Shown: piece after piece, positions 14,538 to 26,501 of the stretch
Position numbering within the stretch: the stretch's first letter is position 1
How the letters are laid out: each line of letters opens with the position of its first letter
From: Actinomadura spongiicola
GTDB taxonomy: Bacteria > Actinomycetota > Actinomycetes > Streptosporangiales > Streptosporangiaceae
Length of the DNA stretch: 64,000 nt
Direction: 5' to 3'
NCBI RefSeq assembly: GCF_003432485.1
Contig: NZ_QVNQ01000012.1
Location: 1-64,000, forward strand
Translations under genes and position numbers: made by a program
The notes under the pieces: model-generated
Told to the model about the DNA's origin: nothing
Databases searched by the model: none
Seen by the model: only the letters and a program-made list of their open reading frames with translations

Positions 14538-15146
14538 TCAGCTGAACTCCACGTCGGAGCACTGGTAGAACGCGTTGCCGGTGTCGGCGATGTCCCACAC
14601 CGCGAGCAGAAGGTGCCTGCCCTGCTTGGGCGGCAGCGCGACCTCGTGGGAGAGGGTGCTCGGCGGACGCCGGCCACCGCCGCTGAAGGTCCCGAGCGGC
14701 TTCGATTCCAGGTCGGCGCGCGTGAGCGGCTTCGTGGGGTCCCAGCCGTCCTTGGTGACGTAGTAGTGCCACGAGGTGGTGGCGTGGGGGACGGCGTGAC
14801 GCCAGGTGAACGTGAACGACTGGCCGCTCGTGAGCTTGTTCGTGGGCCACTGGCCGTTGCGCGGGTCGTCGAGCTGCTTGAAGCGGCCGACGCCCCCGGC
14901 GCAGATCGTGCCGTCACGGGGGCCGCGCTGCGGGAACCCCTTCGGGCCCTCGACGCTCGAAGGTTCGTACTGGATCTCGCCACAGTTCCGCGCGGTGCCC
15001 TTCTGACAGAACAGGGCACGGCTGATCGGGGCGGTGGTGTAGCCGTGGGACAGCGCGGGAGCGGTCGTCACCATGGTGATCCCGGCGGCAGCGACGGCCG
15101 CGTACGCGAATGTGCGTTTTCTGGGGGTACGGAGGTTGGCGGGCAT
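14538..15146 (-). CDS. Secreted lytic polysaccharide monooxygenase (AA10, chitin-binding type)
   Basis: A 202-residue copper monooxygenase precursor that oxidatively cleaves chitin or cellulose outside the cell. A signal peptide runs to residue 33 (ends TTAPALS) and the mature protein begins with His34 (HGYTTAPISRA). His34 and His121 (in VPHATTSW) form the copper histidine brace; the aromatic axial residue is in NAFYQCSDVEF. There is one catalytic domain and no extra binding module, so about 169 residues when mature. The start ATG 15146 follows AGGAGG closely; the frame is open to 15221 but those residues are not signal-like. A dyad lies upstream and a strong terminator downstream. Confidence 0.92.
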   Translation of the reverse strand: MPANLRTPRKRTFAYAAVAAAGITMVTTAPALSHGYTTAPISRALFCQKGTARNCGEIQYEPSSVEGPKGFPQRGPRDGTICAGGVGRFKQLDDPRNGQWPTNKLTSGQSFTFTWRHAVPHATTSWHYYVTKDGWDPTKPLTRADLESKPLGTFSGGGRRPPSTLSHEVALPPKQGRHLLLAVWDIADTGNAFYQCSDVEFS

Positions 15147-15239
15147 ACTCGGTCCTCCTGGCGGGGGGTGGAGGCGACCTTGGTCTCGGAGTTCGGTAGC
15201 CACGAACGGACGGGCGGACATGGAGTGCGGAAGCTTTTT

Positions 15240-15428: not shown

Positions 15429-16043
15429 TTGATCATCTTCGGCTGGCGGGTGGTGTTCTTCACCCTGACCAGGGGAGTCTTCCACTGTCCCAACTGCGGC
15501 GGCGACCGCGACTACCGGCGCAGACAGGGCCGCAACTTCTTCACCCTGTTCTTCGTCCCCGTCATCCCGCTGACCAAGGCGGGCGGCGAGATCGTCGAGT
15601 GCGACGTCTGCCACGGACGCTGGGAACCCGCCGTCCTCGACGTGCCGACCACCGCGCAGCTCGCCCAGATGCCCGCCATGCTCCTGCGGATGACGATCGC
15701 CCAGGTCCTGCGCTCGGGCGACTACACCGACCCGACCGCCCGCGGCCGCGCCGTCGCCGTCGTCCGGCAGGCGGGCGAGCACGCCTACGACGACAACGCC
15801 CTGAACGCCGACCTCGGCCGACCGTTCGAGGAGGTCCGCGTCGAGATCGGCCACGCCGCGCCCGCCCTGGCGCCCGAGGCCCGCGAGAGCATCCTGCGGG
15901 CCGCCGCCGAGATCGCCCTCGTGGACGGCCCGCTCAGCGTCTCGGAGGAGGAGACCCTGTCCGCCGTCGGCGCCGACCTCCGGCTCACCCGCGTCCAGGT
16001 CACCGGCGTCATCTCCCTGGCCCGCCAGGAATCCGGCCACTGA
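15429..16043 (+). CDS. Zinc-ribbon protein with TerB-like C-terminal domain
   Basis: A 204-residue protein. The N-terminus MIIFGWRVVFFTLTRGVF is hydrophobic, then CPNCGG and CDVCHGRW form a zinc ribbon separated by NFFTLFFVPVIPL. The C-terminal half (AAAEIALVDGPLSVSEEETL) has the acidic helix pattern of the TerB family. It may be membrane-associated. The start is TTG 15429, chosen because the family begins MII(F/W)G and AGAGG at 15415-15419 sits nine bases before it. Reading the same frame further upstream gives a long open frame back to 14280 that is only a shadow of the LPMO and spacer. Role unknown; possibly linked to envelope stress. Confidence 0.78.
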   Translation: MIIFGWRVVFFTLTRGVFHCPNCGGDRDYRRRQGRNFFTLFFVPVIPLTKAGGEIVECDVCHGRWEPAVLDVPTTAQLAQMPAMLLRMTIAQVLRSGDYTDPTARGRAVAVVRQAGEHAYDDNALNADLGRPFEEVRVEIGHAAPALAPEARESILRAAAEIALVDGPLSVSEEETLSAVGADLRLTRVQVTGVISLARQESGH

Positions 16044-16094
16044 ACAGGCGGCAAGAACCCGCGGCCCCGCTTGCGATTGCGCTACTGTTGATGT

Positions 16095-16130
16095 ATGTCG
16101 GCAAGGCTGCTCCTCGAACGACCACGTTGA
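16095..16130 (+). CDS. Leucine-rich leader peptide of the leuS attenuator
   Basis: An 11-residue open frame, MSARLLLERPR, with three consecutive leucine codons (16107-16115). It sits between the zinc-ribbon gene and leuS, just before two stem-loops, the second a terminator. Leu codons in a leader before leucyl-tRNA synthetase are the hallmark of ribosome-mediated attenuation. A possible -10 element TACTGT (16083-16088) would place the transcript start at or near the ATG, so the leader may be translated without a leader sequence. An overlapping ATG at 16091 in another frame gives no leucine run. Confidence 0.7.
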   Translation: MSARLLLERPR

Positions 16131-16149
16131 CGCGCTGACGTCGACGTGG
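16122..16149 (+). promoter_or_regulatory. Attenuator stem-loop 1 before leuS
   Basis: CCACGTTGACG (16122-16132) pairs with CGTCGACGTGG (16139-16149) with one G-U pair; the left arm overlaps the end and stop codon of the leader peptide. A ribosome stalled on the Leu codons or finishing the peptide would change whether this stem can form. Its right arm abuts the terminator stem, so a full switch of exclusive structures cannot be proved by eye. Confidence 0.6.
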
Positions 16150-16150
16150 T

Positions 16151-16177
16151 GGCCCCTCCTGCGCGAGGGGCCCTTTC
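16151..16177 (+). terminator. Intrinsic terminator of the leuS attenuator
   Basis: GGCCCCTC, loop CTGCGC, GAGGGGCC, then CTTTC. It lies 21 bases after the leader peptide stop and 66 before the leuS start. It could alternatively end the upstream zinc-ribbon transcript, but the leader peptide makes attenuation more likely. Confidence 0.75.
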
Positions 16178-16243
16178 ATGTCGGAGGACGGCCCACCGCC
16201 TTGGTGCAGCCAGCGAGCGAGCAAGAAACCGGAGTCTGGAAAC

Positions 16244-18763
16244 GTGAGCAGCGACGTCACCCCTCGCACGACGACGAGGGGAACAGGAGGGTCGTCCCCC
16301 CTGAACGACTCGTACGATCCACGGGCCGTTCAGGACAAATGGCAGGCCCGATGGGCGGAGCTCGAACCGTTCGCGGCCGACGAGAAGGACGACACCCGGG
16401 AACGGCGCTACGCGCTGGACATGTTCCCCTACCCGAGCGGTGACCTGCACATGGGCCACGCGGAGGCGTTCGCCATCGGCGACGTCCCCGCCCGGTACTG
16501 GTTCCAGCGCGGCTTCAACGTCCTGCACCCCATCGGCTGGGACTCCTTCGGCCTGCCCGCCGAGAACGCCGCCATCAAACGCGACTCGCACCCCGCCGAA
16601 TGGACCTACGCCAACATCGAGACCCAGGCGACGTCGTTCCACCGCTACGCCCCGTCGTTCGACTGGACGCGGCGGCTGCACACGTCCGACCCCGAGTACT
16701 ACAGGTGGACGCAGTGGCTGTTCCTGCGCTTCTACGACCGCGGCCTGGCCTACCGTAAGGGGGGCCACGTCAACTGGTGCCCGAAGGACCAGACCGTCCT
16801 GGCCAACGAGCAGGTCGTCGGCGGGCACTGCGAACGCTGCGGCACCCTGGTCGAGAAGCGCGTCCTGACCCAGTGGTACTTCAAGATCACCGACTATGCC
16901 GACCGGCTGCTGGACGACATGGAGCAGCTGGAGGGCAAATGGCCCGAGCGCGTCCTGCTGATGCAGCGCAACTGGATCGGCCGCTCCACCGGCGCCGACG
17001 TCGACTTCGTCATCGAGGGACGCGACGAGCCCGTCACCGTCTACACCACCCGGCCCGACACCCTGTTCGGCGCGACGTTCATGGTCGTCGCCGCCGACGC
17101 CGCCCTGGCCGAGGAGATCTGCGCCCCCGACCAGCGGGCCGCGTTCGAGGCGTACCGCGATGAGGTCTCCCGCGAGAGCGAGATCGAGCGGCTGTCCACC
17201 GAACGTGAGAAGACCGGCGTGTTCCTGGGTCGCTACGCGGTGAACCCGGTCAACGGGGAGCGGCTGCCGATCTGGGCGTCGGACTACGTCCTGGCCGAAT
17301 ACGGCCATGGCGCGATCATGGCGGTTCCGGCGCACGACCAGCGCGACCTGGACTTCGCGCTGAAGTTCGGCCTGCCCGTCCGCGTCGTCGTCGACACCGG
17401 CCTGCCCGACCCGGCCGACACCGGCGTCGCCACGCCAGGCGACGGCGCGATCGTCAACTCCGGGCCGATCGACGGGCTGGCGAAGGACGCGGCGATCTCC
17501 CGCATCATCGAGATCCTGGAGTCGCGGGGCACCGGCCGCGCCGCCGTGAACTTCCGGCTGCGCGACTGGCTGGTGTCACGGCAGCGGTTCTGGGGCTGCC
17601 CGATCCCGATCGTGCACTGCGAGGCGTGCGGCGAGGTCCCCGTCCCCGACGAGCAACTGCCGGTGACGCTGCCCGAGGGACTGCGCGGCGCCGACCTGGC
17701 CCCGAAGGGCACCTCCCCGCTGGCCGCCGCGACCGACTGGGTGAACGTGGCATGCCCCAAATGCCACGGCCCCGCCAAACGCGACACCGACACCATGGAC
17801 ACGTTCGTCGACTCGTCCTGGTACTTCTTCCGCTACTGCTCGCCCCACTACGAGGACGGCCCGTTCGACGTCGAGCAGGTCCGTAAGTGGATGCCGGTCG
17901 ACCAGTACACGGGCGGTGTCGAGCACGCCATCCTGCACCTGCTGTACAGCCGGTTCTTCACCAAGGTCCTGTACGACATGGGCATGGTCGGGTTCACCGA
18001 GCCGTTCCGCCGGCTGCTGAACCAGGGGCAGGTCATCAACCAGGGCAAGGCGATGTCGAAGTCGCTGGGCAACGGCGTCGACCTGGGCGAGCAGATCGCC
18101 GAGTTCGGGGTGGACGTCGTCCGGCTGGCGATCCTGTTCTCCGGACCGCCGGAGGACGACATCGACTGGGCGGACGTGTCCCCGCACGGCATGGCGAAGT
18201 TCCTGTCCCGCGTGCACCGCATCGCCGCCGAGGTCACGTCCCCGCCCGGCGCCGACGCCACGTCCGGCGACCAGGCCCTGCGCCGCGTCACCGCCCGCAC
18301 GATCGACGAGGCCACCACCCTGATCGAGACGCAACGGTTCAACGTGGCGATCGCCCGGATCATGGAACTGGTCACCGCGACCCGCAAGGCCATCGACTCG
18401 GGCCCCGGCCCCGCGGACCCCGCCGTCCGGGAGGCGGCCGAGGCCATGGCGGTGATGCTGTCGCTGTTCGCGCCCTACACCGCCGACGAGACCTGGGAAC
18501 TGCTGGGCCGCGCCGCACCGGTGATCAACGCTGGTTGGCCCTCCGCCGACCCGGCCCTGCTGGTGGAGGAGTCGGTGACCTGCGTCGTCCAGGTCGCCGG
18601 GAAGGTCCGGGACCGCCTGGAGGTTCCGCCCGGCATCACGGAGGCCGACCTGGAACGTCAGGCCCTGGCCTCGACCAAGGTCCAGGACGCCCTGGGCGGC
18701 GCCGAGATCGCCAAGATCATCGTTCGCCCGCCCAAGATCGTGAACGTCGTCCCCAAGCGCTGA
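16244..18763 (+). CDS. leuS: Leucyl-tRNA synthetase
   Basis: An 839-residue class Ia synthetase that charges tRNA-Leu in the cytoplasm. The HIGH-type motif is HMGH near residue 70, the editing (CP1) domain follows ([20 protein letters not shown] and [15 protein letters not shown]), and the KMSKS-type motif is KAMSKS near 602. Zinc-type cysteines appear around [13 protein letters not shown] and CERCG. The start is taken as GTG 16244, with GGAG about nine bases upstream; ATG 16178 lies on the edge of the terminator and has no ribosome site. Expression is probably governed by the leucine leader peptide and terminator upstream. A strong hairpin follows the stop. Confidence 0.96.
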
Positions 18764-21241: not shown

Positions 21242-21264
21242 CCGCGCGGGCATGGCCCGCGCGG
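21242..21264 (+). promoter_or_regulatory. Hairpin between nrdR and nrdJ
   Basis: CCGCGCGGGC, loop ATG, GCCCGCGCGG: a perfect 10-bp stem with a three-base loop in the 119-bp gap. It may pause or partly end transcription, or be an RNA-processing point, so that NrdR and NrdJ levels differ. It also argues against the ATG at 21252, which lies in the loop, as the nrdJ start. Confidence 0.55.
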
Positions 21265-21320
21265 CGGCGGGGTTGTTCCTGAACAGGGCCCCGGCGGGTG
21301 GGCCCGAGAGGGGGAAGGTC

Positions 21321-24300
21321 ATGACGGAGACGGTGAGCGGCTCGGCGGCACGGCGCGGCAAGGGGGGGCGCAAAGGGCTGAAGGTCGAGCGCATCTTCAC
21401 CACACCCGGCGTGCATCCGTACGACGAGCTGCGCTGGGAACGTCGTGACGTCGTCATGACCAACTGGCGCGACGGCTCGGTGAACTTCGAGCAACGCGGC
21501 GTCGAGTTCCCCGACTTCTGGTCGGTGAACGCCGTCAACATCGTCACCTCGAAGTACTTCCGAGGGGCGGTCGGCACGCCGCAGCGGGAATGGAGCCTGA
21601 AGCAACTCGTCGACCGCGTCGTCCGCATGTACACGGACACGGGCCTCAAAGAGGGCTACTTCGCGTCCGAGCAGGACGCCGAAATCTTCGACCACGAACT
21701 GAAGTACGCCCTCGTCCACCAGCTCTTCAGCTTCAACTCGCCCGTCTGGTTCAACGTAGGCACCAAGTCCCCGCAGCAGGTGAGCGCGTGTCTGCCCTAC
21801 GACTCGCTGGTCAGCACACCCGCGGGACTGGTTCCGATCGGCCGACTGGTGGAGCAGGACGCGGTCGGGGCCAAGGTGTACGACGCCCAGGGGCTCACCC
21901 GCGTCGTCGCCACCAAGGCCAATGGTGTGAAGGATGTGCTCCGCGTCCACACCAAGGCCGGCTACACCTTGGACGTCACCGCCGACCACCTCGTCTGGAA
22001 GGCCACGGGCGCCGGGACGGGACGCTTCGTCCCCGCCGGCGAACTCAAGGTCGGTGACCAGCTCGAATGGCACAGGCGCGACGCCTTCGGCGAATCCGAG
22101 ATCACGCCGCGTGGCTTCGCCGAGGCCGCGCTCGCGGGCTGGCTCCAGTCCGACGGCTTCGTGGGCCGCTACGAGAACGGGACGAACCGTTCGCTGACCA
22201 TCGAGGCCATGACTGTGACCGACGCCGAACGGGAGTGGGTCCAACGTCACCTGAATGTCGTCTTCCCCGACGTTCACCGGCACGAGCGCACCGTCGAAAC
22301 GCAGGACCCCACCCTCGACTGCCGTCGTACCAGGCTCTACGGGAACGTGCTCCAGGAGTTCGTGGACGAGTGGGGGCTGATGGCCCGCGGGGTCGACATG
22401 GTGGTCCCCGAACGGCTGTTCACGGCCCCCCTGCCCGACGTCGCCGCGTACCTCCGCAGCATCTTCCAGGCCGAGGGTTTCGTGTCCGCGCGCCCGTCCT
22501 CGACGGTCATCGAAGTCGACATGATCTCCGAGAAGCTGATTCGCGGCATGCAGCGACTCCTGCTGCGTTTCGGAATCTTCTCAAGGGTCGGCTTCAAGGA
22601 GGACGCGCGGGCGGACCGGCACGGCTGCTGGACGCTCCGCATCCAGAACGCGGGAGATCGCCGCATCTTCGCCGACGAGATCGGATTCGTCGACCCGGCG
22701 AAGGCGCTCAAGATGCACCAGGGTTTCGACAAGCCTGGACGCCCCGCCCACCCGACCAAGCGGCTGGAAATCGCCAAGGTCGAGCACCTGGGTCCCATGG
22801 ACGTCTATGACATCCAAACCGAGAGCGGAGAGTTCCTCTCCGACAACATCCGGGTCCACAACTGCTTCATCCTATCTGTGGACGACACGATGGAGTCGAT
22901 TCTCGACTGGTACAAGGAAGAAGGCGTCATCTTCAAGGGCGGGTCCGGTGCCGGGCTGAACCTGTCACGTATCCGGTCCAGCAAGGAACTGCTCTCGTCC
23001 GGAGGGACGGCCAGCGGACCCGTCTCGTTCATGCGCGGCGCCGACGCCTCCGCGGGGACGATCAAGTCGGGCGGCGCGACGCGGCGGGCCGCCAAGATGG
23101 TGGTGCTGGACGTCGACCACCCCGACATCGAGGAGTTCATCGAGACCAAGGCGCGCGAGGAGGACAAGATCCGCGCGCTGCGGGACGCCGGGTTCGACAT
23201 GGACCTCGGCGGCAAGGACATCGGCAGCGTCCAGTATCAGAACGCCAACAACTCGGTCCGCGTCTCGGACGAGTTCATGCACGCCGTCGAATCCGACGGC
23301 GAGTTCGGGCTGCGCGCCCGGATGACCGGCGAGGTCGTCGAGACCGTCAAGGCCAAGGACCTGTTCCGGCTGATGGCGCAGGCCGCGTGGGAGTGCGCCG
23401 ACCCCGGCATCCAGTACGACGACACGATCAACGACTGGCACACCAACCCCGAAACCGGACGTATCACAGCAAGTAACCCTTGTTCCGAATATATGAGTCT
23501 GGACAACTCGTCCTGCAATCTGGCGAGCATCAACCTGCTCAAGTTCCTCACGGACGAGGGGACGTTCGACGTTCCGAAGTTCGTGAAGCTCACCGAGCTG
23601 ATCATCACGGCGATGGACGTCTCGATCACGTTCGCCGACTTCCCGACGGAGAAGATCGCGGAGACGACGCGCGACTACCGGCAGCTCGGGATCGGGTACG
23701 CCAACCTCGGCGCGCTGCTCATGGCGACCGGGCACGCCTACGACTCCGAGGGTGGACGGGCGATCGCCGCGGCGATCACGTCGCTGATGACGGGTGTCGC
23801 CTACCGCCGGTCGGCGGAGCTCGCCGGTGTGGTCGGTCCGTACGTGGGCTACGCGCGCAACGCCGAGGGGCACAAGCGCGTCATGCGCAAGCACGCCGCC
23901 GCGAACGACGGAATCCGCACTTTGGATGCGATGGACAAGGCGATCCACGCGGCGGCCGCGAAGCAGTGGCAGGAGTGCCTGAAGGTCGGTGAGAAGCACG
24001 GCTACCGGAACGCCCAGGCCAGCCTGCTCGCTCCGACGGGGTGCCTGACGGGCGACACGCTGGTGACGACCGACCGCGGCCTGATGCGCCTGTCCGAGAT
24101 CGGCGACGTGTACGGCGATCGCTGGCAGGACTTGGACATGGTCGTGTCCACCGACGAAGGGCCGCGTCAGGCGACCAAGTTCTTCGTCAACGGTGAGGAG
24201 CCGACCCGCCTCATTCGTACCGGGGGTGGTTACACGATCCAGGGAACTCTGACTCACCGCGTGAAGGTGGTCGAGGCAGGGACGGGCGCATGGGTGTGGC

Positions 24301-26501
24301 GTCGACTGGCGGACATCCGTGAGGGTGACCTGGTGCCCATGCAGATGCGGACGCTCGTCGGCGACCGTCGACAGGTTCCGCTGCCGGTCCTCGATCAGGC
24401 CTACTACGCCGGTGACCGGCATATCGATGTTCCCGACTCCGTCACTCCGGAGCTGGCCGAACTCGTCGGCTACTTCATGGGGGACGGGAGCCTCCACGCG
24501 AAGGGCCTGCGACTGTGCGTGGCGGACGACTCGTTCGACGTCGCCGAGCGGTTGCAGATTCTCGCGAAGGACTTGTTCGGCATCACGCCCGTCGTGGTCG
24601 AACAGCAGGGATATCGCGAGGTGACCCTCTCATCCATGCGGCTCGCCCGGTGGTGGAAGGCGGCGGGCTTCGCGAAGGACCTGCCCGGCGCCGACCATTC
24701 GGGCAAGGGCTGGACGCCCCGGGTGCCCTCCGCGATCCTCGAAACGAACGACGTCGAGGTCTACGCCGGGTTCCTGCGGGGGCTCTTCGAGGCGGACGGG
24801 ACGGTGACCGAAGGCGTCCCCAGCCTGTCGACCGCCTCCGAGTCCTTCGCGGGCGAAATTCGGACGCTGCTGCTCGCGCTGGGCCTCGCAACGACCACAC
24901 GTACGACCGTCAGCGGCTTCGGTGGGGACATCTACCAGGTCCGTATCCGGAACCTCGACCATGCGTTGAGCTTCGACGAGATCGTGGGCTTCATCGGTGA
25001 GCGGAAGGCGCGGCTCATGGCCGCGTTGGAACCGGCGCGATCCGCGAAGAACGACTATGTGGTGCTCTCTCGGACTGATTGGGACGAGATCGTTCCGGTG
25101 GGTCATCCCTTGAGGGCCACCGTCCTCCAGTCGATCCGGAAGAACGGTGGCGTCCCCCGGATGGTGGCGCGCTCCCTCTTCACCGAGACGTTCCATGAGC
25201 GGCTCGGACACGCGCTGGAGTACCTGTTCGAGCGCGTGGCGGCCAATGAGGACGGCGGCGTCCAGCCGACGTACGACCTGTCCGTGCCGGAGAACGTCAC
25301 TTACGTGGCCAACGGCATGGTGAGCCATAACACCATCGGATTGATGATGGACTGCGATACGACCGGTATCGAGCCCGATCTCGCGTTGATGAAGTTCAAG
25401 AAGCTCGTCGGCGGCGGGTCCATGCAGATCGTCAACCTGACGGTGCCGCGGGCGCTGGAGAAGCTCGGTTACCAGCAGGAGCAGATCGAGGCGATCGTCG
25501 AGTACATCTCCGAGCACGGGCACGTCGTGGACGCGCCCGGGCTGCGTCCCGAGCACTACGAGGTGTTCGACTGCGCGATGGGGGAGCGGGCGATCAGCCC
25601 GATGGGGCACGTGCGGATGATGGCGGCCGTCCAGCCGTTCCTGTCCGGCGCGATCTCCAAGACGGTGAACATGCCGGAGAAGGCGACCGTCGAGGACATC
25701 GAGAAGGTGTACTTCGAGGGGTGGCGGCTCGGCCTGAAGGCCCTGGCGATCTACCGGGACAACTGCAAGGTCGGCCAGCCGCTGTCGGCGGCGGGGAAGA
25801 AGGAGACGGTCAAGGAGGTCCCGGCGGCGACCGGGCCGACGCCGCCGGTGCGCAGGCGGCTGCCGAAGCAGCGTCCCGCGACCGTCACGCGCTTCTCCGT
25901 CGCGGGCGCCGAGGGTTACATGACCGCTTCGTCCTACCCGGACGACGGTGTCGGTGAGGTGTTCCTCAAGCTGGGCAAGCAGGGTTCCACGCTCGCCGGT
26001 GTGATGGACGCCTTCTCGATGGCGATCTCCATCAGCCTCCAGTACGGCGTGCCGCTGGAGACCTGGGTGGAGAAGTTCACCAACATGCGGTTCGAGCCCG
26101 CCGGGATGACCGACGACCCGGACATCCGCATGGCCACCTCGGTGATGGACTACATCTTCCGTCGGCTGGCCCTCGATCACCTGCCCTACGAGGAGCGTGC
26201 GGGTCTCGGCATCCTGTCCGCCGAGGAGCGCGCGATGCAGGCCAACGGAGAGGACCCCGCCGCCCTGCACGCCGAGGACGAGGTCGACCACGAGTCCCTG
26301 GCGCAGTCCGCGGCGATCGCCCGGCCCGCGGCGCCGGTGTCCGCTCCGGCGAGCGAGGCGCACTCGTCCATGGAGGTCATCGAGAGCCGGCAGGGCCGTA
26401 CCGCGGACGCGCCGTTGTGCCTCACCTGCGGGACGAAGATGCGCCCGGCGGGCAGCTGCTACGTGTGTGAGGGCTGCGGCTCCACCAGCGGATGCAGCTG
26501 A
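21321..26501 (+). CDS. nrdJ: Adenosylcobalamin-dependent (class II) ribonucleotide reductase interrupted by two inteins
   Basis: The precursor has 1726 residues; removing the two inteins leaves 938, the usual size of actinobacterial NrdJ. It reduces ribonucleotides to deoxyribonucleotides with vitamin B12 and does not need oxygen. Exteins: 21321-21788, 22863-24041 and 25332-26501. The active site is intact: the first redox Cys follows intein 1 (SA|CFILSVDD), the radical Cys is in SNPCSEYM with the second redox Cys in SSCNLAS, LAPTG|TIGLMMDCDTTG follows intein 2, and the C-terminal zinc/redox tail has CLTCG and CVCEGCGS. ATG 21321 has GGGGAAGG in front. It is in an operon with nrdR. Protein splicing is required before the enzyme can work, as both inteins sit at conserved active-site segments. 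Confidence 0.95.
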   Translation: MTETVSGSAARRGKGGRKGLKVERIFTTPGVHPYDELRWERRDVVMTNWRDGSVNFEQRGVEFPDFWSVNAVNIVTSKYFRGAVGTPQREWSLKQLVDRVVRMYTDTGLKEGYFASEQDAEIFDHELKYALVHQLFSFNSPVWFNVGTKSPQQVSACLPYDSLVSTPAGLVPIGRLVEQDAVGAKVYDAQGLTRVVATKANGVKDVLRVHTKAGYTLDVTADHLVWKATGAGTGRFVPAGELKVGDQLEWHRRDAFGESEITPRGFAEAALAGWLQSDGFVGRYENGTNRSLTIEAMTVTDAEREWVQRHLNVVFPDVHRHERTVETQDPTLDCRRTRLYGNVLQEFVDEWGLMARGVDMVVPERLFTAPLPDVAAYLRSIFQAEGFVSARPSSTVIEVDMISEKLIRGMQRLLLRFGIFSRVGFKEDARADRHGCWTLRIQNAGDRRIFADEIGFVDPAKALKMHQGFDKPGRPAHPTKRLEIAKVEHLGPMDVYDIQTESGEFLSDNIRVHNCFILSVDDTMESILDWYKEEGVIFKGGSGAGLNLSRIRSSKELLSSGGTASGPVSFMRGADASAGTIKSGGATRRAAKMVVLDVDHPDIEEFIETKAREEDKIRALRDAGFDMDLGGKDIGSVQYQNANNSVRVSDEFMHAVESDGEFGLRARMTGEVVETVKAKDLFRLMAQAAWECADPGIQYDDTINDWHTNPETGRITASNPCSEYMSLDNSSCNLASINLLKFLTDEGTFDVPKFVKLTELIITAMDVSITFADFPTEKIAETTRDYRQLGIGYANLGALLMATGHAYDSEGGRAIAAAITSLMTGVAYRRSAELAGVVGPYVGYARNAEGHKRVMRKHAAANDGIRTLDAMDKAIHAAAAKQWQECLKVGEKHGYRNAQASLLAPTGCLTGDTLVTTDRGLMRLSEIGDVYGDRWQDLDMVVSTDEGPRQATKFFVNGEEPTRLIRTGGGYTIQGTLTHRVKVVEAGTGAWVWRRLADIREGDLVPMQMRTLVGDRRQVPLPVLDQAYYAGDRHIDVPDSVTPELAELVGYFMGDGSLHAKGLRLCVADDSFDVAERLQILAKDLFGITPVVVEQQGYREVTLSSMRLARWWKAAGFAKDLPGADHSGKGWTPRVPSAILETNDVEVYAGFLRGLFEADGTVTEGVPSLSTASESFAGEIRTLLLALGLATTTRTTVSGFGGDIYQVRIRNLDHALSFDEIVGFIGERKARLMAALEPARSAKNDYVVLSRTDWDEIVPVGHPLRATVLQSIRKNGGVPRMVARSLFTETFHERLGHALEYLFERVAANEDGGVQPTYDLSVPENVTYVANGMVSHNTIGLMMDCDTTGIEPDLALMKFKKLVGGGSMQIVNLTVPRALEKLGYQQEQIEAIVEYISEHGHVVDAPGLRPEHYEVFDCAMGERAISPMGHVRMMAAVQPFLSGAISKTVNMPEKATVEDIEKVYFEGWRLGLKALAIYRDNCKVGQPLSAAGKKETVKEVPAATGPTPPVRRRLPKQRPATVTRFSVAGAEGYMTASSYPDDGVGEVFLKLGKQGSTLAGVMDAFSMAISISLQYGVPLETWVEKFTNMRFEPAGMTDDPDIRMATSVMDYIFRRLALDHLPYEERAGLGILSAEERAMQANGEDPAALHAEDEVDHESLAQSAAIARPAAPVSAPASEAHSSMEVIESRQGRTADAPLCLTCGTKMRPAGSCYVCEGCGSTSGCS
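21789..22862 (+). other. Intein 1 in NrdJ with LAGLIDADG-type homing endonuclease motifs
   Basis: An in-frame 358-residue insertion, Cys1 (CLPYDSLVSTPAG) to the C-terminal RVHN, followed by Cys +1 of the extein. Splicing motifs: block A at the start, block B DVTADHLV with the TxxH pattern, block F VYDIQTESGEFL and block G VHN|C. In the middle are two dodecapeptide motifs, LAGWLQSDGFV and LRSIFQAEGFV, each keeping one acidic residue (Asp, Glu), so a LAGLIDADG endonuclease may be active. The insertion point is directly before the first redox cysteine of the reductase. Confidence 0.93.
24042..25331 (+). other. Intein 2 in NrdJ with LAGLIDADG-type homing endonuclease motifs
   Basis: An in-frame 430-residue insertion from CLTGDTLVTTDRG to MVSHN, followed by Thr +1 of the extein (TIGLMMDCD). 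Splicing blocks: A at the start, B with TLTH (GYTIQGTLTHRV), F TYDLSVPENVTYVANG, G SHN|T. The endonuclease motifs LVGYFMGDGSL and LRGLFEADGTV are near-canonical and both keep the catalytic Asp. It differs in sequence, length and insertion point from intein 1, so the two entered independently. Confidence 0.95.

Follow-up and report, generated by a model that had tools for sequence, protein, structure and literature searches.

A probable leaderless leucine attenuator of fixed geometry upstream of leuS in Actinomadura

The leuS gene of Actinomadura spongiicola is very probably preceded by a real, conserved and leaderless leucine attenuator of a kind known from Streptomyces, and it is very probable that this leader raises enzyme output when the supply of charged leucine tRNA falls. 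We hold with high confidence that the leader is a leucine-responsive attenuator; the signal would be charged tRNA-Leu. Its specific interest lies in a strict geometry and in the lack of a recognisable antiterminator. Leaderless leuS attenuators have already been reported for Streptomyces (PMC1262725; PMC8079986), and what is newer relative to that work is the fixed spacing of codons and hairpins, the absence of an antiterminator, and the presence of a comparable leader before cimA, the citramalate synthase gene. A limited literature search found no earlier report of the cimA leader or of the spacing from codons to the first hairpin (P1) and on to the terminator hairpin (T).

Parts of the leader in the window

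All parts of the element lie on the forward strand of the window, the whole stretch of 64,000 nucleotides that was analysed. A −10 hexamer, TACTGT (16083–16088), follows a conserved TGCGC and precedes a start codon at 16095; judged from the conserved position of the hexamer, transcription would begin on the leader ATG or right beside it. The predicted leaderless reading frame (16095–16130, stop codon TGA) encodes MSARLLLERPR in 11 codons, and the peptide with three consecutive leucines that the original prediction placed before leuS is indeed present. The regulatory codons CTG CTC CTC occupy 16107–16115, and P1 begins 5 nucleotides past the last of them. This hairpin of 12 base pairs (16121–16150) joins 16121–16132 to 16139–16150 around a loop at 16133–16138. 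It abuts the GC-rich hairpin T (16151–16172; 16151–16158 with 16165–16172), which is followed by a weak U-tract, CTTTCATG, at 16173–16180. The original prediction counted two stem-loops and a terminator. Both hairpins exist, but there are only two in all, and the second of them is the terminator. The bases past the U-tract, for example 16173–16190 of the window, are partly conserved among 105 leaders, approximately as TTTTNTNTGTCCGGG.

The gene 3′ of the leader is leuS of the bacterial type (16244–18763; NCBIfam leuS_bact, 950.6 bits), probably starting at GTG, with a possible ribosome-binding site, GGAG, at 16231–16234; the closest relatives that bear a name are Actinomadura species. A covariance model of the leader, R1, matches 16107–16177 with 77.8 bits, the window sequence being itself among the 45 used for the model. 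On the 5′ side an open reading frame on the same strand ends at 16043, 107 nucleotides before T.

Several measures place the element beyond chance. The RNA of 16095–16180 folds with −40.8 kcal/mol, compared with a mean of −30.5 for 200 shuffles (sd 3.45, z −2.99), one of which folds as stably as the observed sequence. The only terminator-like site on either strand between 15900 and 16400 is that at 16151–16172, compared with 0.3 such sites in shuffled sequence; a search of the same interval for a sigma-70 consensus promoter gave none. A pattern of −10, ATG, three CTN codons and CC, which was written to fit the site, matches once in the 7.7-Mb genome, at the leuS leader, and its reversed control matches nowhere. 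Rfam gives no match at the gathering threshold in the window or in six related loci, and none down to E 1 within 16040–16260; in that scan the leader thus matches neither the T-box nor any other curated covariance model.

Conservation, spacing and codon choice

R1 was built from 45 leuS leaders, partly from this genus and including that of the window. It matches upstream of leuS in all 65 genomes of the genus, and all 65 carry the leader, P1 and T. The regulatory codons read LLL in 61 genomes, LLP in 2 and RLL in 2, the four genomes with two leucines having been added by the R1 search, which did not demand LLL. The TANNNT hexamer ends 6 nucleotides before the start codon in 59 of the 65 genomes and 7 in the remaining 6, which supports the −10-like element and leaderless start that had been proposed for TACTGT. 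A leaderless start has, moreover, been reported from RNA-seq for the S. lividans counterpart, MRAVRLLLSEPR (PMC8079986). The original prediction had named two outcomes as fatal to it, leucine codons that are not conserved among relatives and a transcript start downstream of the leader. The codons are conserved, with LLL in 61 of 65 genomes and two leucines in the other 4, and neither outcome occurred.

Outside the genus the architecture is widespread. Leader, P1 and T were found in 116 of 207 leuS regions (204 with the short LeuS type and 3 with the long), some of these regions being one species fetched twice or having little upstream sequence, and in 33 of 73 regions before the long type, which Streptomyces-like genomes carry. 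The search required LLL; a −10 was not required for either count but served as a preferred tie-breaker among candidate starts, and these counts replace an earlier one (104) that had demanded it. Because the leader occurs before both short and long LeuS, it stands before two different synthetase types. Several of the long-type leaders are MRAVRLLLSEPR, identical to the published S. lividans peptide. Pooled, the two sets comprise 137 distinct leaders, of which 104 precede the short type and 33 the long. Because the locus L203 is present in both, 138 rows correspond to 137 leaders; the 138-row set underlies the codon comparison, the stop distances, the ribosome-position pairing and the counts of overlap with T, and figures for 137 are a recount. 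Start codon, leucine codons, spacing and the pair of hairpins all persist across many families and upstream of either LeuS type.

The leader is not universal in the class sample: of its 168 genomes, 75 lack an R1 match at E 0.01, and among the other 93 are some whose only matches lie elsewhere. Three of the 65 genus genomes (G063, G064 and G023) have a second, longer LeuS, and R1 matches before both genes (L063/L203, L059/L202 and L055/L204, respectively). In G063 and G064 the third leucine codon before the short leuS gene is replaced by proline.

The geometry varies little among the 137 leaders. TANNNT ends 5–7 nucleotides before the start codon in every one, and a CCRY box that marks the start of P1, with its offset counted over 18 nucleotides, lies 6 nucleotides after the leucine codons in 135 and 3 in the other 2. 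The gap from P1 to T is −1 to +2 nucleotides. These P1 spacings are bounded by the search, since P1 was sought 3–9 nucleotides past the leucine run and ending between 5 nucleotides before T and 1 inside it (gap −1 to +5). The P1 loop ranges from 3 to 38 nucleotides, and the stop codon falls 3 to 30 nucleotides past the leucine codons. The quantities that are kept are the distance from codons to P1 and the distance from the base of P1 to T. In 136 of 137 leaders at least 16 nucleotides separate the stop codon from T, a distance at which a ribosome on the stop codon need not block the hairpin. In the remaining leader, L140, an early stop codon has been lost and the new one is only 9 nucleotides before T. 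A spacing of 5 nucleotides resembles that of frameshift-stimulating hairpins.

Covariation supports both helices. It was assessed in 45 of 48 sequences, which had been selected from the 138 rows for less than 88% identity and a P1 loop of no more than 12 nucleotides. Compensatory changes occur in 10 of 12 pairs of P1 and 3 of 7 pairs of T; 95.0% of cells pair overall, and 98.4% do so in T, which supports the intrinsic terminator that had been predicted before leuS. The observed values were never reached by 500 shuffles on four of five measures, and one shuffle in 500 reached the fifth; slid versions of the alignment all scored lower.

Codon choice within the leucine run is distinctive. The third codon is CTT in 108 leaders, CTC in 28, CTA in 1 and CTG in none of the 137, to be compared with 1.4% CTT and 80.5% CTG in 161 LeuS genes. 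The leuS gene of the window uses CTG 60 times and CTC once; its leader alone uses CTC twice. A single isoacceptor reads both CTT and CTC. The pattern of the third codon agrees with a stall sensor, although another constraint may lie behind it.

Ribosome position, mechanism and rival readings

The original prediction had failed to find an antiterminator that excludes the terminator stem, and that gap is real. In our test the RNA stops short of the 3′ arm of T, and pairing of the T 5′ arm is followed by ribosome position. E. coli leuL and trpL show an antiterminator, with the 5′ arm 0.75–0.83 paired on stalling and 0.01–0.02 at the stop codon; hisL is not a working control, because its arm stays 0.75 paired at stop. 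The leuS leaders show none: in 105 of them the arm is paired 0.21, 0.22 and 0.35 with the ribosome at Leu1, Leu2 and Leu3 and 0.37 at stop, while shuffled spacers give 0.55, and pairing exceeds 0.5 in 0, 1 and 18 leaders at the three codons. A helix of at least 5 pairs that takes at least 3 nucleotides of T occurs in only 2 of the 138 rows (137 distinct). Folding with the ribosome footprint, which had been suggested as a check, yields no strand-exchange antiterminator against T, and by these predictions an antiterminator of the trp type was not found in leuS leaders. When the whole terminator is present, T is above 0.5 in 105 of 105 leaders in every ribosome state, and 4 fall below without a ribosome; in the 138 rows T is above 0.5 in 135 or 136. 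Ribosome-mediated attenuation as first proposed holds up in its leucine codons, leaderless start and terminator, all of which are kept, but not in the classical means of antitermination.

What does change with ribosome position is P1. If the ribosome keeps about 9 nucleotides beyond the start of the A site single-stranded, mean pairing of P1 is predicted to be 0.96, 0.96 and 0.75 with Leu1, Leu2 and Leu3 in the A site, 0.36 one codon past the leucine run, and 0.10 two codons past it. With a boundary of 12 nucleotides the switch comes one codon earlier (0.36 with Leu3 in the A site). Because P1 is predicted to melt once the ribosome leaves the leucine codons, it may be regarded as the read-out of a leucine stall, and it is probably a ribosome-gated antiterminator.

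The reading that we consider fairly probable is a leaderless, ribosome-mediated attenuator that reads the charging of leucine tRNA, with P1 as its read-out and adjacency as the means of blocking T. A ribosome would start on the bare 5′ AUG of the leader. With any of the leucine codons in the A site, P1 would lie at or outside the leading edge of the ribosome and would be mostly folded; one or two codons past the run it would melt. Backed by the stalled ribosome, an intact P1 would keep T from zipping fully at the exit of RNA polymerase, so that leuS is transcribed, and melted P1 would leave single-stranded RNA ahead of T, which would close and end transcription. Since P1 directly abuts T and shares 0–2 nucleotides with it, intact P1 should hinder closure, and P1 may counteract T despite so few shared bases. 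That the exclusion is steric rather than by base pairing is a tentative proposal, to which we give somewhat less than an even chance. By analogy with the published leader of M. tuberculosis ilvB1, intact P1 most likely corresponds to leuS being on.

Observations bear on this scheme from both sides. In E. coli, a ribosome close to a terminator is reported to repress it (PMC4824070). Against the adjacency model, clustered or directly adjacent hairpins have been described as effective terminators (PMC8355165). P1 and T are predicted to fold together at equilibrium, so that secondary structure does not reveal their exclusion. The weak U-tract of the window and the four genus leaders with only two leucines also count against the mechanism, as do the earlier loss of P1 at the 12-nucleotide boundary and the 75 class-sample genomes that R1 does not match. 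The fixed spacings from codons to P1 and from P1 to T make the mode of action directly testable by read-through. If adjacency alone blocks the terminator, it would provide a design rule for RNA switches without overlapping sequences.

Comparison with described systems brings out what is shared. The Streptomyces leuS attenuators (PMC1262725; LeuL2 of S. lividans TK24, PMC8079986) are reported with the same LLL leader, leaderless start, hairpins and terminator, but stand before the longer LeuS type, whereas that of the window precedes the short one. A leaderless LLL leader directly before leuS, as in LeuL2, is what is found here, with a start that is placed by the conserved −10. In the leader of C. 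glutamicum ilvBNC, as described in PMC11857589, transcription likewise starts one nucleotide from the start codon and an antiterminator touches the terminator, and its control codons, CUU and GUA, are a further likeness; in contrast, its hairpins overlap by 3 nucleotides rather than by 0–2, and it senses branched-chain amino acids. Starvation induces M. tuberculosis ilvB1, and with LVVI replaced by AAAA induction is lost and expression stays low (PMC13236596). Its hairpin is said, as is proposed for P1, to form at the LVVI stall and to be masked with the ribosome at stop; unlike P1 and T, which can fold together, its terminator and antiterminator are mutually exclusive according to the authors, and its 166-nucleotide leader does not count as leaderless as that paper usually applies the term, whereas the leuS leader is predicted to be (PMC13236596). 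The LEU element before leuA is likewise an actinobacterial leader with leucine codons, but it is described as a pseudoknot in which these codons pair with the ribosome-binding site, without a terminator (PMC1262725). The same source reports that leader codons of S. coelicolor ilvB have no effect and that some actinobacterial attenuators lack parts. In broad terms an attenuator is indicated by the sequence itself, which holds a conserved reading frame with leucine codons and a predicted terminator between it and leuS.

Four other accounts of the element have to be weighed. A classical three-hairpin attenuator of the trp/leu kind, in which the stalled ribosome masks one strand and the next pairs with the 5′ arm of T, was the interpretation of Seliverstov et al., whose 2005 text reports an antiterminator and a terminator for the leuS leaders of S. 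coelicolor and S. avermitilis (PMC1262725). The E. coli leu and trp attenuators share with the leuS leader a peptide rich in the cognate amino acid and a terminator before the gene. However, a 2:3 antiterminator appears in our test for the E. coli leaders and not for those of leuS: none was found in the 137 leaders, the T 5′ arm reaches 0.21–0.35 at the leucine codons of 105 leaders against 0.75–0.83 in leuL and trpL, and the two rows of 138 noted above are the only ones with a helix that invades T. We judge this account quite improbable. Rather unlikely, in our view, is a fast exchange at the boundary as in C. glutamicum ilvBNC, by which P1 would take the outermost bases of T by branch migration. 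There, the touching hairpins are reported to share GCC, and mutations in the overlap raise expression seven- to eightfold (PMC11857589). The first one or two nucleotides of T do pair upstream in part at Leu1 (means of 0.60 and 0.26 for the first set and of 0.49 and 0.39 for the long type), with T+2 of the window leader at 0.85, so that the small boundary shared by P1 and T may matter. Abutting hairpins are common to both systems, yet the three-nucleotide exchange is absent from leuS: contiguous P1 takes no base of T in 94 rows, 1 in 41, 2 in 3 and 3 in none of the 138 (137 distinct).

It is unlikely that P1 is mainly a pausing hairpin, holding RNA polymerase for the ribosome while the choice at T is kinetic. 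A pause-like element, G−10 Y−1 G+1, lies 9–12 nucleotides past P1 in 87 of 137 leaders, compared with 32.5 in shuffles (sd 5.0, 138 rows), an excess that is inflated because the leader sequences are related. This element is one known from E. coli, and pausing alone does not explain how T is passed on starvation. That T merely terminates the upstream gene, the leader being incidental, is very improbable. The same-strand frame that ends at 16043, 107 nucleotides before T, would supply such a gene, but start codon, leucine codons, spacing and hairpins are retained before two LeuS types and across many families, and the homologous leader of S. lividans is reported to be transcribed leaderless (PMC8079986).

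An arrangement in which the leucine codons mimic the T 5′ arm by pairing with GAGGGGC was considered and rejected. No pair changes on both sides, and although 94.9% of cells in the 45 sequences can pair, as against 57.8–77.1% in slid alignments, shuffles do equally well; the pairing is broken in leaders with CTTCTGCTT, and its polarity would also be wrong. In the window only, the loops of the two hairpins were noticed by eye to offer a contact, CGCGC in P1 against GCGCG in T.

Similar leaders at other genes

The cimA leader, MRHSLVIIGWRAGSS, sited between ilvE-like and cimA-like genes (TIGR00977 match, Pfam), contains isoleucine codons followed by 5 nucleotides, P1, 1 nucleotide and T. In the organism's own genome R1 gives a weak second match (25.8 bits, E 0.0057) on the minus strand at L327:2421–2502 (G000:C23:825220–825301). 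Similar leaders occur in L328, L331 and L332. A search that required a −10 (TA or CA) and a P1 within 5 nucleotides of T, and thus had adjacency built into it, yielded such leaders at 16 of 30 cimA loci (gene matched in 46 of 59 genomes) and 20 of 30 ilvB loci (58 of 59). The distance from codon run to P1 is 5 in 6 of the 16 cimA leaders and 11 of the 20 ilvB leaders and otherwise 0–8, a spread due in part to the ambiguous end of the codon run. For 15 leaders chosen from these 36, pairing of the T 5′ arm amounts to 0.27 at the first codon and 0.43 at the last codon, at stop and in shuffles alike. Three ilvB leaders of one family (f4) are predicted to have P1 abutting T, with both folding together.

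The cimA and ilvB data suggest, and do not prove, a design shared with leuS. It is conceivable, though we rate it somewhat below even, that there is a general actinobacterial "stacked-hairpin" attenuator for branched-chain genes, consisting of a leaderless leader with its control codons, about 5 nucleotides, P1, 0–1 nucleotide and T, in which a helix placed against the terminator stem, with help from the stalled ribosome, would bring about antitermination without exchange of base pairs; it would stand before leuS of both types and, more loosely, before ilvB and cimA.

No convincing tryptophan leader was found in 30 trpE loci (52 genomes matched; the family match starts inside TrpE) or in 30 trpS loci (58 genomes matched), where two doubtful reading frames precede trpS. 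An R1 match of 36.9 bits at L329:1411–1490 lies just past what appears by eye to be a tRNA-like gene; it is probably the tRNA terminator and a false positive.

Two neighbours of the leader deserve mention. Near the leuS region, 14538–15221 on the minus strand encodes a protein that carries a lytic polysaccharide mono-oxygenase domain (LPMO_10). Farther downstream, 21252–26501 encodes a class II ribonucleotide reductase that contains an intein splicing domain and LAGLIDADG sequence in two places; by eye, two inteins can be discerned.
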